IMG/VR virus record: IMGVR_UViG_3300026130_000018
Coordinates: 1 to 28,771 of that record
DNA from: a virus
Reading direction: 5' to 3' (one strand)
DNA: 28,771 bases
The position numbers and the translations under genes were made by a program. Positions 6,725-13,481 of the stretch are shown in pieces (position 1 is the stretch's first letter; each line of letters opens with the position of its first letter). Below the pieces are notes generated by a model that saw only the letters and a list, made by a program, of their open reading frames with translations, was not told where the DNA came from and made no database searches.

Positions 6725-7008
6725 TTCGATACCCTCAAGCTGTTGTAGTTCGGATCAAGCGCATTCTGCCGAGTATTCGTAGAACGCTCTGTAAGCACTT
6801 CTGAGAGCTTTTCCAGATAATGTATAGCCTTACCTACCTCTTGCACCGTTTCATCCTTAGAACCCATCCTGAGAAGGTATTTGAGCGCATTACCACGGTA
6901 ATACCCAATGCGCTGCTCTAACGGCCAGGTATCGACCACATCCCACGGTTGTATCGATTGGTCCTTGTAGTGACTTCCACCGACTTGCTTTTTGTTCGCC
7001 TCACTCAT
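6721..7008 (-). CDS. DUF3310 family protein
   Basis: The 95-aa product opens MSEANKKQVGGSHYK, then IQPWDVVDTW and GNALKYLLRMGSKDETVQEVGKA. The pattern GGxHY ... (I/V)xPW ... NxxKYLxR is characteristic of the DUF3310 family, found widely in phages and also recognisable in the C-terminus of the T7 gp1.7 nucleotide kinase. A nucleotide-metabolism role is possible but not shown here. The ATG at 7008 is preferred over an upstream frame extension because it overlaps the VRR-NUC stop as ATGA and has GGGAG five bases upstream. The gene sits between a nuclease gene and the packaging genes in one leftward operon. Confidence 0.85.
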   Translation of the reverse strand: MSEANKKQVGGSHYKDQSIQPWDVVDTWPLEQRIGYYRGNALKYLLRMGSKDETVQEVGKAIHYLEKLSEVLTERSTNTRQNALDPNYNSLRVSK

Positions 7009-7283
7009 AGTAACTCCCACACATCTCTCATCATCTGATTCACATCCTCTTTCGACCACACGACAAACACCATCTGATCGAGCGATCGCATCACACCGAT
7101 CGTGTGCCGCTGTAACGGACTAATCTTCCCACCCTTCGTCTTCACCTCAACAAACAGCGTAAGACCACCAGGCAGCATCACAATACGGTCAGGCACACCT
7201 CTTTGTCCGGTCCACTTCCAGCAGCGTCCACCGGCAGCCTCCACAACACGTACAAGGTGTCGTTCAATGTCTCGTTCTCGCAT
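7005..7283 (-). CDS. VRR-NUC domain nuclease
   Basis: The 92-aa stand-alone nuclease has the VRR-NUC (PD-(D/E)XK superfamily) motifs in order: an N-terminal helix RERDIERHLVRVVEAAGG, then QRGVPDRIVM with the catalytic Asp, FVEVKTKGG with the E-x-K pair, and LQRH with the motif IV Gln. Phage VRR-NUC proteins of this size commonly lie beside primase, polymerase or SNF2 genes and are proposed structure-specific nucleases; Holliday-junction cleavage has been reported for some members. The ribosome site is AGGTGG six bases before the ATG. Upstream lies the repeat array, which separates it by 338 bp from the primase-helicase gene in the same orientation. Confidence 0.92.
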   Translation of the reverse strand: MRERDIERHLVRVVEAAGGRCWKWTGQRGVPDRIVMLPGGLTLFVEVKTKGGKISPLQRHTIGVMRSLDQMVFVVWSKEDVNQMMRDVWELL

Positions 7284-7296
7284 CCTCTACCACCTA

Positions 7297-7612
7297 GCGT
7301 CCGTCCGTTTTTTGTCCTTAAATTTTTTGTCCGCGTTTGTGCGTGTGTCCGTTTTATATAGTCCCTATATAAAACGGACAGGACGGACGCACTTCACATT
7401 ACGCCAAACGGACGCAAACAAACGTAAAACGGACACTAATTTCTTTATAAAACAAAGACTTACCTCTAGCGTCCGTTTCCGTCCGTTTTTTAGCTCAAGA
7501 AAAAACGGACACCCCCAAAAAAAGCGAAAAACGGACGCTTTTTGATCATTTTTTAACCAGCGTCCGTTTGTCCGTTTGCGTCCGTTTTTCAAAAAACGGA
7601 CAAACGGACGCT
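7297..7612. repeat. Iteron-like array: 14 copies of GTCCGTTT in both orientations, candidate replication origin
   Basis: In this gap between VRR-NUC and primase-helicase the octamer GTCCGTTT occurs seven times on the plus strand (7303, 7347, 7471, 7481, 7562, 7570, 7580). Its complement AAACGGAC occurs seven times (7372, 7406, 7427, 7503, 7529, 7594, 7602). Several copies are extended by GC before or after (GCGTCCGTTT), and near-copies include GTCCGCGTTT at 7329. Copies pair into inverted repeats: a 16-bp hairpin (7346-7380), an 11-bp pair (7481-7491 with 7500-7510) and a 19-bp pair (7559-7577 with 7594-7612). A/T runs are interspersed. Dense short repeats next to a helicase-primase gene are typical of phage and plasmid origins. 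An alternative is an operator array or a structured leader for the VRR-NUC operon. Confidence 0.9.
7346..7380. repeat. Perfect 16-bp inverted repeat with 3-nt loop
   Basis: Arms 7346-7361 and 7365-7380 are perfect complements separated by TCC. Each arm contains one copy of the array octamer followed by TATATAG. The near-palindromic A/T-rich centre could extrude as a cruciform and serve as a melting or initiator-binding site; this is inference. It is not a conventional terminator because no T-run follows either arm. Confidence 0.9.
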
Positions 7613-7621
7613 CAATTTTCA

Positions 7622-9664
7622 TCACACTCTAACCACAAAAACGCCATCACATATCTGCGCATGATGACGTTCTCGTATGTTAGAACAGCCTGCAGTCCAA
7701 GCTCCTCTGACTGTACTTTGGTTGTCCCTTCGAGGGTGATCGCGTTCAAATTTATCCCTGACTCGATCCACATCGATAGCCACTCCACACGTTGCGAATG
7801 GGAACTCGATGGTCGCTTCAGGGGGAACAGCTCGATGCGCTGTGGGGTCGTTATCCATAAAATAACGGATGGTATCCATCAGCAATTTGCCGTTGCGAGA
7901 TAGCTTCATCTTGGCGCTATCGAGCTGATCCTGGGAATTAGCTGACGCTCGTAGGATGGCTGAATAGGTCACATTGCCGTACTCATCATCGTAGTTTGAT
8001 GGCAGTTGGATCTGTACGAATTCAAACACCACTGGCTCAAACTGTGGGCCTTCCTTCATCTTGCGACACTCCATCACCACGCCATTGATGCCATCTCTGC
8101 GCACCATTGCGATCTCAACATCCATAGATGCCTTGATGTTTTTGGAGCCAGCAGAGCTGTCGGTGGTATGTTTTGGGGTGTGATGTACGACCATGATGGT
8201 GCAATCGTACTTGCGCGATATATGCGTCAGGTATTCGATGATGGGCTGCACTTCTTCTGAGCTGTTCTCATTAATACCGGCCGTTGCGCGGCCCCAGGTG
8301 TCCACGACCACTAGCTGTGGGTCATCGAGTTTGTCCAGGTACGCTTCCAGTGTCTTGCGCTCCTTATCCATTGATAAGTTGATCGCTCGATTGGTCATAA
8401 TGAAGTTAGACGCATCGGGGAAGTTACGCTCTGAGCGCCACGCATAGGCTCGACGGTTCACACCATTATGGCCTTCACCTGCGATGTATAGCACCTGGCC
8501 TTTCTTGGTTCGCATACCGAGCCACTTGTCGCCAGTCGCTACCGATAAAGCTATATCGATCGCACCGAAGGATTTACCCACGCCAGACTCACCGTAATAG
8601 TTCACCACCGCTGCCTGTTCCACATACCCTTCAATGGTCCAGCGCACTGTATGACTGGCGTTTTGATACGCATCTGTCAGTGGGACAAACAGCGCATTGG
8701 GTATCGATGTCGCAGCGACTTCATCTTGGTACTCATCAGAGTCGTACTCGGTGGGAATGTCTTTAGTACGCTTATGCTTCTTGGCGATGGCTGACAGGTC
8801 AGCACCGTATCGCTTGGCCCACTTCGCGATCGATCCCAGGTTGTACTTGGTGGTGCGTTCGGTGTTGGTGAACCGATCCCACTCATGGCGCATATCGCGC
8901 AGTCCATCGTACTTCTCCGAGCGTTGCGACCATTGGTCCCACAGCTCGAAACCATCAGTAGAACCGTGGAAGTGAGTGTTGAGCGCCATGCTGACATCGA
9001 TCCACATCTGTTCGTTGTCTGCAGGTATGTACGACAGCAGCTCGCGTATCTCTTCGATCGGGGTGTTAGAGACGATGTGACCACTGAAGACATCATCGAT
9101 CTCTTGCTCTGGCGATGGCTGGATGGGCTGACTGTACTGCTCTACGATCTCAGCCAGTTGTCCGTTCTTGCGAGCGATCTGGTGCAGCTTTCCCATCGTG
9201 TTGCCGGTGATGGTCAGGAAGCGAGCACTGTTACCGGAATACACCTCATAGGGTTCTTTGAGATCTTTGGCCGGTGGTGTATCGACCTGGTAGACCAGTC
9301 GCATACCGTTACCAGAGGGTGAACGCTCGACGTAGGTCTCACCCAGCGCCTTCAGCTCATCCGGTAGTTTGTTTGAGTCATCGATGTCGATGAACGCCAG
9401 ACCATCCTTGGTCGCCAGTCGGCCGACACCGTTGAAGCCGCCACCGAGGTAGAGCTGCTGGGCCTGATCGAACGTCAGCCAGGTGTCTGGCTCAGTGGTC
9501 TTGATCGTGTTGATGCCGTTGAAGGGTATCTTGTCGTACTTGCCGTTACCCTTCGGTCTAGCCTTCCAGACGCACCAGGGACCATCGCGCAGTAACTCTG
9601 GGATGTTCTCAAATTTAGGTGCGAGTCCAAATCCATGTGGGTGCTTTATATTATTCTTGGGCAT
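7622..9664 (-). CDS. Bifunctional primase-polymerase / RepA-like replicative helicase
   Basis: The 680-aa protein has three parts. Residues ~20-160 form an archaeo-eukaryotic primase-like prim-pol domain: acidic pair D93-x-D95 in FIDIDD, a SPSGNGMRL turn (115-123) and VYSGNSARFLTITG (141-154). Residues ~200-290 match the PriCT-2 type helical domain (EIRELLSYIPADNEQMWIDV, then SIAKWAKRYGAD). Residues ~335-560 form an AAA_25/RepA hexameric helicase core, with Walker A GESGVGKS (358-365), Walker B LVVVD (451-455) and sensor-like VVHHTP (492-497). It should both prime and unwind at the phage fork. The ATG at 9664 is chosen because AGGAGA lies seven bases upstream and the extended N-terminus from 9691 has none. 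It overlaps the Cro-like gene by 14 bp. The repeat array begins 10 bp beyond its stop. Confidence 0.93.
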   Translation of the reverse strand: MPKNNIKHPHGFGLAPKFENIPELLRDGPWCVWKARPKGNGKYDKIPFNGINTIKTTEPDTWLTFDQAQQLYLGGGFNGVGRLATKDGLAFIDIDDSNKLPDELKALGETYVERSPSGNGMRLVYQVDTPPAKDLKEPYEVYSGNSARFLTITGNTMGKLHQIARKNGQLAEIVEQYSQPIQPSPEQEIDDVFSGHIVSNTPIEEIRELLSYIPADNEQMWIDVSMALNTHFHGSTDGFELWDQWSQRSEKYDGLRDMRHEWDRFTNTERTTKYNLGSIAKWAKRYGADLSAIAKKHKRTKDIPTEYDSDEYQDEVAATSIPNALFVPLTDAYQNASHTVRWTIEGYVEQAAVVNYYGESGVGKSFGAIDIALSVATGDKWLGMRTKKGQVLYIAGEGHNGVNRRAYAWRSERNFPDASNFIMTNRAINLSMDKERKTLEAYLDKLDDPQLVVVDTWGRATAGINENSSEEVQPIIEYLTHISRKYDCTIMVVHHTPKHTTDSSAGSKNIKASMDVEIAMVRRDGINGVVMECRKMKEGPQFEPVVFEFVQIQLPSNYDDEYGNVTYSAILRASANSQDQLDSAKMKLSRNGKLLMDTIRYFMDNDPTAHRAVPPEATIEFPFATCGVAIDVDRVRDKFERDHPRRDNQSTVRGAWTAGCSNIRERHHAQICDGVFVVRV

Positions 9665-9848
9665 CCGTTGTCTCCTGGTAGTATCTCTCATCGATCTTCA
9701 GCTTCCTGCCGCTAATCACATACAGCTCGAATTGTTTAGCCTTCGGTGGTCGTTCTCCCCATGCATAGATCGCCTGTGGATATATGTCCAAAGCGTTGGC
9801 CAAATATTTAGGACCACCGTAGTATTCGATAGCCTCTTGAGTCGTCAT
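9651..9848 (-). CDS. Cro-like transcriptional repressor (P22 Cro family)
   Basis: This 65-aa protein has the layout of P22-type Cro: TTQEAIEYYGGPKYLANALD (helices 1-2), IYPQAIYAWGERPP (recognition helix and the W-x-x-x-x-P turn) and then a short strand region FELYVISGRKLKIDERYY. P22 Cro has the same order, a dozen-residue helix, a VSQW-like recognition helix and an alternating beta tail. It is the first gene of the leftward operon, with GGAGGTG seven bases before its ATG, and it faces the DUF2800 gene across a 99-bp control region. It most likely binds there and damps one or both divergent operons. No partner CI-type repressor is seen next to it. Confidence 0.85.
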   Translation of the reverse strand: MTTQEAIEYYGGPKYLANALDIYPQAIYAWGERPPKAKQFELYVISGRKLKIDERYYQETTDAQE

Positions 9849-11702: not shown

Positions 11703-13481
11703 GTGTCCCAGAAACTGATCCCAGTCGCATTCGACATCGAGTGCTACAAAAACTATTTCCTCGCTGTCTTCGCGTCCGAAGACGGTACCACCTACAGCAT
11801 CAAGCTGCATAACGATAAGCTGACCGGCAGTAAGCAAGTGGTCGAAGCTATCCTGCGTAAGAACCCACTAATCAGCTTCAATGGCGATAACTATGATCTG
11901 CCGGTGTTATCTGCATTCCTGGCAGGTTGGTCCAATGCGAAGCTCAAAGAATTATCAGATGCGATCATCCTTAAGAATCTACCTCGCTGGCAGCTATCGG
12001 ATCACTTCCCATCGCTGCGCATTAAGCGAGTCGATATGGGTCATATCGATCTGATAGGGGTGACACCTTTGAAGTCATCACTCAAGACCTATGGCTGTCG
12101 CATCCATTCCAAAAAGCTGCAGGATCTACCTATTGATCCGAGCGCCAGCATCAGCGAACAGGATGCTGTGGTACTCGAAGACTATTGTAAGAACGATGTG
12201 ATGGTCACCTGGGATATCTACCACACCTTGCATGGCGAGCTGGTCCTGCGCTCTGACATGAGCAAAGAATACGGTATGGACCTGCGCAGCAAGTCAGATC
12301 CACAGATCGCTGAAGCGATCATCCGTCACTACATGGAAGAACATGGGTACGATGTATCGAAGCGTACTGCCGCTGTGGAGCCATTCAAGTACAAGGTGCC
12401 AGACTTCATCGAGTTTGAGACTAAGCAGCTTCAGGATGTCTTAGAGACCGTCAGAGAATGTACGTTCACTGTCAAAGACACCGGTAACGTCGAGCTACCT
12501 GATGCGATCAAGAACCTGGTCATCGAGTTTAATGGCGCTAAGTACAAGCTCGGCATCGGTGGCCTGCACTCGCAAGAGAAGCGCCAGGTCATCGAGCCAA
12601 ACGAAGATCTACTGCTAGGCGAATACGATGTGGCCTCGATGTACCCATCGATCATTTTGGGCCAGGGTCTGTACCCTGAGCACCTCGGTGATGGTTTCCT
12701 GGAAGTGTACCGCATGATCTTCGATAAGCGCATGGCAGCGAAGCGTACAGGTGACAAGACAACAGCAGATACCCTGAAGATTGTACTGAACTCGTCATAC
12801 GGAAAGTTTGGCAGCAAGTATAGCTTCTTGTATTCGCCTGAGCTGCTCATACAGACGACCATCACCGGTCAGTTGGCACTGCTCATGCTGATCGAGCGTC
12901 TCAGTCTGGTGGGCGCACAGGTTGTCTCAGCGAACACCGATGGCGTTGTGATCCTGATGTACGCGGATCTTGAGGTTGAGGTTGAGTATCGGTGCCATGA
13001 GTGGTCGAAAGCGACCACCTACATCCTAGAGTGGACACCCTATAAAGCGATGTATAGCGAGTCAGTGAACAGCTATGTGGCACTGAAACCTGATGGTAGC
13101 GCGAAGACTAAAGGGTTGTACGAGTCTGGATCGATCCGCAAAGGATACTCGGCCCAGGTGTGTAACGATGCGATCGTTGCGCGACTTACACATGGCACCC
13201 CCATTGATCGTTACATCCAGAACGCGACTGACATCCGAGACTTCCTGGTCATGCGAGGTGTCAGAGGGGGTGGTTACTGGAACAAGCAGAACATCGGTAA
13301 GGTGGTGCGCTGGTACTACAGCACAGAAGGCCATCCGATCCGCTACGCCAATGGCAACAAGGTCGCTGGCAGTGATGGTGCTGTACCGCTGATGGACCTT
13401 ACGGACACCATACCGGCTGACTTAGACATCCAGAAATATATCGACATCGCATACGACAAACTGAAGAGACTGGGCCTATGA
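11703..13481 (+). CDS. Compact family B DNA polymerase with 3'-5' exonuclease
   Basis: The 592-aa protein carries an N-terminal proofreading domain: Exo I D11-x-E13 (FDIECY), Exo II FNGDNYDLPVL (about 59-69) and Exo III Y161-x-x-x-D165. The family B polymerase motifs follow: motif A EYDVASMYPSII with D309, motif B LKIVLNSSYGKFG with K359 and Y366, and motif C SANTDGVV with D413. Two features are unusual. Motif C has Asn in place of the first Asp of the usual DTD, keeping only the metal-binding D413. Motifs A and B are only about 50 residues apart, much closer than in phi29 or RB69 polymerases, so there is no room for a TPR2-like insertion. Start: GTG at 11703, with GGAG upstream (start 11691). 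It overlaps the helicase gene as ATGA. Confidence 0.93.
   Translation: MSQKLIPVAFDIECYKNYFLAVFASEDGTTYSIKLHNDKLTGSKQVVEAILRKNPLISFNGDNYDLPVLSAFLAGWSNAKLKELSDAIILKNLPRWQLSDHFPSLRIKRVDMGHIDLIGVTPLKSSLKTYGCRIHSKKLQDLPIDPSASISEQDAVVLEDYCKNDVMVTWDIYHTLHGELVLRSDMSKEYGMDLRSKSDPQIAEAIIRHYMEEHGYDVSKRTAAVEPFKYKVPDFIEFETKQLQDVLETVRECTFTVKDTGNVELPDAIKNLVIEFNGAKYKLGIGGLHSQEKRQVIEPNEDLLLGEYDVASMYPSIILGQGLYPEHLGDGFLEVYRMIFDKRMAAKRTGDKTTADTLKIVLNSSYGKFGSKYSFLYSPELLIQTTITGQLALLMLIERLSLVGAQVVSANTDGVVILMYADLEVEVEYRCHEWSKATTYILEWTPYKAMYSESVNSYVALKPDGSAKTKGLYESGSIRKGYSAQVCNDAIVARLTHGTPIDRYIQNATDIRDFLVMRGVRGGGYWNKQNIGKVVRWYYSTEGHPIRYANGNKVAGSDGAVPLMDLTDTIPADLDIQKYIDIAYDKLKRLGL

Follow-up and report, generated by a model that had tools for sequence, protein, structure and literature searches.

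The octamer array and its neighbouring genes

The window, by which we mean the whole 28,771-nucleotide stretch of viral DNA analysed here, contains an intergenic gap of 338 bp (7284-7621) that separates a primase-helicase gene (7622..9691, minus strand, 689 aa) from a VRR-NUC nuclease gene on its far side (7005..7283, minus strand). The gap holds an array of 14 exact GTCCGTTT words distributed over both strands (7297..7612), which we regard as a candidate replication origin. Because both flanking genes are on the minus strand and the helicase gene ends into the gap, the array lies directly 3′ of the primase-helicase gene, beginning about 10 bp past its stop codon. A P22 Cro-like repressor gene is found directly upstream of the primase-helicase (9651..9848, minus strand), and terminase genes lie within about 1 kb of the array, on the same side. 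The window also encodes a family B DNA polymerase (PolB; 11703-13481) that is closest to those of Vibrio and Pseudoalteromonas phages (48-49 %), followed by seuratvirus-like E. coli phages (43-44 %).

An initial annotation had placed fourteen exact octamers, seven per strand, between these two genes and had judged their density to be beyond coincidence; counting bears out both statements. The copies of GTCCGTTT/AAACGGAC, seven on each strand, span 7303-7609 (307 bp), whereas dinucleotide shuffles of the record contain 0.54 on average and never more than three (100 shuffles). The octamer, the most frequent 8-mer of the window, is also special to the locus, with no further exact copy in the whole 28.8 kb record; allowing one mismatch adds scattered single sites only. 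All 14 copies recur in UViG_3300026125_000013, an IMG/VR contig identical to this one.

The words are ordered as two plus, three minus, two plus, two minus, three plus and two minus. The inverted repeats that had been noticed among them can be resolved into three inverted blocks (7303-7434, 7471-7536 and 7562-7609) and two perfect repeats. One of these, at 7346..7380, has 16 bp arms (7346-7361/7365-7380), a 3 nt loop and an AT-rich centre (TATATAG-TCC-CTATATA), making it a candidate hairpin or melting site. The other, at 7559..7612, has 19 bp arms (7559-7577/7594-7612) containing four words, and the 16 bp that separate the arms contain one more. The description of the gap as otherwise empty stands in general, the exception being short mechanical open reading frames made by the repeats themselves. 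The GC content of the array is 43 % against 51 % for the record. Cumulative GC skew, proposed as a check, proved uninformative about the array: its turning point, at 9-10 kb, coincides with the switch in gene direction, and the array does not stand out.

The primase-helicase, the proposed reader of the array, is identified by domain matches and by its similarity to NrS-1. It combines an N-terminal PrimPol (AEP) domain, which matches the NrS-1 primase structure (6a9w, E 1.6e-9), with PriCT_2 (215-292) and an AAA_25 RepA-type helicase (339-508); a Toprim primase is absent. The last ~100 amino acids have an unassigned fold and no detectable relative, profile and phmmer searches with the C-terminus giving no match. 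In particular, no profile match to a winged helix was obtained, and the AlphaFold model, with pLDDT below 50 over most of the C-terminal region, is unusable there. In IMG/VR the protein is accompanied only by its identical contig and by proteins about 25 % identical, no close relative was found among genome contigs, and the best full-length protein relative is that of Caulobacter phage GB2A.

Arrays at the end of primase-helicase genes in other phages

To find similar loci, IMG/VR was scanned for the inverted octamer pair, which occurs in at least 119 stretches. Since many chance pairs are expected in such a scan, the analysis was confined to clusters with four or more octamers in 400 bp. Among the matches listed, 10 contigs besides the window's own virus meet this threshold, and in 9 of these 10 unrelated contigs an AAA_25 primase-helicase gene has the cluster either just past its stop or within its 3′ end. 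The helicases next to the clusters have a primase of one of two unrelated kinds, either PrimPol-type together with PriCT_2 (L064, L121) or Toprim (L136); L028, with three octamers, has a Toprim primase too. One cluster was set aside: at 494-609 of L040, next to a DUF5131 gene, the GTCCGTTT/AAACGGAC pair forms part of a 54-bp tandem repeat that seems to have no connection with the arrays behind helicases.

Relatives' loci were then picked by protein similarity. The seeds L028 and L064 came from the motif, their relatives did not, and the seed CRP-821 (a Roseobacter phage) was chosen by protein similarity only. A pooled alignment was too diverse to serve as a search query. Many phages with an AAA_25 primase-helicase have, where that gene ends, an array of words in both orientations, with a word that differs by lineage (among them CGGAC, CGTAC, CCCCCT, GGTAAC, GGAAC, GGGACA, CTACAAA, TCCTAAA and ATGTGAA). 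The L028 clade (75 relatives) has its array past the stop codon, the word being CGGAC, CGTAC, CCCCCT, GTAAC, GGAAC or GACCCT, while in the L064 clade it falls within the final coding stretch of the gene and its words are built on GGACA. The relatives of CRP-821 (n=69) use words including CTACAAA, TCCTAAA, GTATAAA, ATGTGAA, GTATGAA, TGTAGAA, GGAGGA, CGTACCA and ATACCA. The gene beyond the array varies between phages; the primase-helicase is constant.

Among cultured or complete named phages, those with arrays, judged from word counts and by eye, are Salicola CGphi29 (GGGGACA), Idiomarinaceae 1N2-2 (CGGTACA), Alteromonas XX1924 (TGGTTCA), Roseobacter CRP-406 (GGCTGGAA) and CRP-821 (TGTATAAA), Vibrio 1.076.O (CGGACA), E. 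coli phage sortkaff (GTAAC) and MW202867 (TGGGACA). By the same judgement no array is present in Caulobacter GB2A, Mycobacterium LilMcDreamy, Gordonia Evaa, Vibrio 168E36-1 or MW202475. The expectation that relatives would keep an array with a diverged yet equally repeated word is therefore met by many, with a minority, including GB2A, lacking one. Repetitiveness was scored with words of 5-6 letters, since a 7-letter count proved too strict where the word has five letters. By this score no stretch of the locus is more repetitive than the array region in 56/74 loci of the L028 clade, 34/40 of the L064 clade, 65/69 of the CRP-821 clade and 6/7 named phages, as well as in 4/4 of one further set of loci.

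Vibrio phage LP.1 shares the gene order of the window (primase, small gene, DUF2800, OB-fold protein, PolB, VRR-NUC, SNF2), and its PolB is 48.8 % identical to that of the window. The LP.1 gene (L337, 4377-6590) syntenic to window positions 7622-9691 has a helicase part of the DUF5906 (SF3-like) type, not AAA_25, and is followed by an array of AAGCGGATA. Pseudoalteromonas phage AL is similar to the LP.1 locus and has a weaker array. Mosaic arrays mixing two words, as if caught mid-replacement, were seen in L385 and L388 about 280 bp past the helicase stop and also in L397, L398 and L415, the words being TAGGAAA with TCGGAAA, and GTACCA, ATACCA and GTAGTGA.

In one clade the word covaries with the helicase C-terminus

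The association between word and protein was examined in 43 representatives of the L028 clade, which use six words. A tree of residues 1-560, from which the C-terminus is left out, requires 21 or more changes of word. Expressed as a fraction of column entropy, the mutual information of residue and word amounts to about 0.37 along most of the protein and to 0.77 for residues 600-639. Finer resolution places the maximum at 616-639 (0.83-0.86), with lower values again near the gene end (0.43-0.63). The word and the C-terminal codons are physically adjacent, so that part of the covariation can be linkage. Simple linkage to the adjoining array would not give a signal that drops towards the gene end. 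In this clade the word tracks the C-terminus and not the primase half of the protein.

One-base changes of the word are accompanied by two fixed residue differences. Phages with CGGAC and CGTAC have only two fixed differences in 670 residues, Y631S and P632A, and the only fixed differences between GTAAC and GGAAC phages are Q625V and position 632. L192 and L242, whose words differ, are 99.6 % identical over residues 1-560 and 41 % identical after 600. Where the word switches, the final ~350 bp of the gene and the array are replaced together, between flanks that are mostly 90-99 % identical. A wider replacement accompanies the CCCCCT/GGAAC swaps (L191/L241, L186/L204, L195/L242), where the upstream Cro-like region is exchanged too and the helicase body between is mostly 90-99 % identical.

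The word-linked region of L169 is modelled by AlphaFold as a winged helix with its helix 3 at 620-627. The best Foldseek matches of the modelled region are mostly winged-helix regulators, with weak E-values. The stretch that precedes the array in the L064 clade weakly matches a GntR-type helix-turn-helix, and in the CRP-821 clade the word is confounded with lineage and the residue signal is not localised. Word-linked residues of the L028 clade cluster in what is modelled as a C-terminal winged-helix domain of the helicase. What sequence comparison shows is the array, its position directly behind the helicase gene, the turnover of the word at this locus in relatives and, in a related clade, its covariation with this predicted winged helix.

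DnaA boxes and hairpins in the arrays

A perfect TTATCCACA DnaA box is present within 250 bp of the stop codon in 46/73 arrays of the L028 clade, compared to 9/1397 control windows. There are none in the arrays of the CRP-821 clade (0/69) or near the array of the window. DnaA boxes are common in iteron-type origins without being universal. A CCTTTAGG/CCTATAGG-type hairpin lies inside the arrays of 57/73 L028-clade loci (5/1397 controls) and 47/69 CRP-821-clade loci (7/1012 controls). This type of hairpin recurs across clades although the words differ. The inverted repeat at 7346-7380 of the window may be its counterpart.

A probable replication origin, proposed to be read by its own primase-helicase

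We consider it likely that the array is the replication origin of the phage and that it is bound by the C-terminal domain of the adjacent primase-helicase, although for the window neither DNA binding, nor initiation at the array, nor the C-terminal fold has been demonstrated. That the window's protein binds the words, and that binding starts replication, is inferred. For the window the inference of an origin rests on the position of the array and on relatives only about 22-28 % identical. It agrees with the initial annotation, which had suggested an origin bound by the helicase or an unknown initiator; two of the conditions named there as refuting were examined, and neither the octamer's distribution in the record nor the comparison with relatives went against it.

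An alternative reading would have the words serve as template start sites for the PrimPol domain, recognised on single strands as TTTGGTTA is by the NrS-1 polymerase. It draws support from the match of the N-terminus to the NrS-1 primase structure and from the report that NrSPol recognises an 8-nt motif thought to be a start mark of replication (PMC8718748). We nevertheless find it unlikely, as arrays of this kind, sharing the CGGAC core, also stand behind helicases with a Toprim primase (L136, L028), the word of the L028 clade goes with the C-terminus, and the word of the window is GTCCGTTT rather than an NrS-1-type TTTGGTTA or GTG motif. Inverted words also look like operators, and the Cro-like gene upstream of the helicase, in the window and in relatives, offers a candidate to bind them, in which case the array would regulate downstream genes through this or another regulator. 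Yet none of the 14 words of the window is at the promoter of the Cro-like gene. In L186, L205 and L225 an identical Cro-like protein coexists with three different words (CCCCCT, GGAAC and GTAAC), so the Cro-like protein is not the reader in the L028 clade, although its region differs too in the CCCCCT/GGAAC pairs compared; the L225/L241 pair (GTAAC/GGAAC) retains 94-100 % identity in the upstream region. It is moreover the primase-helicase and not the gene past the array that remains the same among phages. Operators are accordingly a poor prospect, and the primase-helicase is favoured over the Cro-like protein as the binder of the array, a preference for which there are no binding data and which sequence comparison alone supports.

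The proximity of the terminase genes leaves room for a packaging (pac) or partition site in place of an origin. We give this very little credence: in relatives the array stays with the primase-helicase whatever its neighbours, its word changes follow the helicase C-terminus, many relatives have DnaA boxes, and no partition gene was recognised among the scanned proteins. Scarcely credible, finally, is the idea that the array works behind the helicase gene as a terminator or a structured transcript, even though the array as single-stranded DNA folds far better than shuffles (z -9.1) and pairing of opposite words would also force them to change in lock-step. Such pairing leaves unexplained the tandem same-strand copies, the covariation with helicase residues and the DnaA boxes. 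A search of Rfam found no family match. Within the array just one terminator-like match occurs, on the plus strand and not on that of the flanking genes, and such matches are no more numerous than chance predicts.

Under the origin reading, many copies of the primase-helicase would bind GTCCGTTT via the C-terminal DNA-binding domain. With words in both orientations, two helicase rings could assemble face to face, as we propose, and these facing rings would open the AT-rich hairpin region. The fused PrimPol domain would then prime synthesis and hand over to the phage PolB. As every lineage has a word of its own, which evolves together with the C-terminal domain, we further propose that each initiator reads its own origin.

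More tentatively, and with somewhat more doubt than confidence, we suggest that AEP or Toprim primase-helicases share a swappable origin-specificity cassette. The cassette would pair the C-terminal winged helix with the array behind the gene, whose lineage-specific word is written in both orientations. Genomes would trade this pair, and its two halves would change their spelling in step, which would yield dozens of origin specificities and a protein-DNA code that can be read. Rivalry between co-infecting phages, or nucleases directed at origins, could be what drives the turnover. If the origin reading is right, the origin becomes readable from sequence in hundreds of phages. The natural pairs that are one word base and two residues apart constitute a ready-made test of how initiator specificity changes, and could show whether origin specificity isolates co-infecting phages from one another.

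Comparison with known systems

A limited search, restricted to open papers, found no literature on such arrays or on origins of AAA_25 primase-helicase phages, and the origins of most of these phages appear to be undescribed. Several characterised systems nonetheless share elements of the proposal. Similar in layout are SaPI Rep and SCCmec Cch2, where iterons lie directly downstream of the initiator helicase gene and Cch2 binds via its C-terminus (PMC7581432). As proposed here, these origins have short repeated words directly 3′ of the helicase gene and a C-terminal helicase domain that binds them. They differ in using D5-type helicases and few direct repeats, whereas in the window a primase is fused to the RepA/AAA_25 helicase and the words are numerous and lie in both orientations.

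The P4 alpha protein (cited in PMC4234260) is described as binding repeats via a winged helix, unwinding and priming, all in a single protein as is proposed for the initiator of the window; its primase is of the Toprim type, unlike the PrimPol domain with AAA_25 helicase found here. The PrimPol-helicase ORF904 of pRN1 has an essential origin just downstream of its own gene, formed by a stem-loop without iterons, and a downstream origin has been proposed for the PrimPol-helicase of Bordetella phage BIP-1 (PMC4234260). Both match the window in having a PrimPol-helicase, with PriCT_2 in the phage versions, and, as is proposed for the window, an origin downstream of the gene; the large stem-loop without iterons is unlike the array. 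The NrS-1 PrimPol has a related N-terminal primase domain and likewise an 8-nt word, which differs from GTCCGTTT in being TTTGGTTA and in being read by the primase part on single strands (PMC8718748).

The exchange of words has its own precedent in PLE RepA of the Vibrio cholerae satellites, where the DNA-binding domain of the initiator and the iterons swap as a module (PMC8263062). PLE uses a RepA_N initiator, not a primase-helicase, and three ~30-bp repeats of which few variants are known, but its joint exchange of DNA-binding domain and origin repeats resembles that of the predicted winged helix and the array in the phage clade described here.
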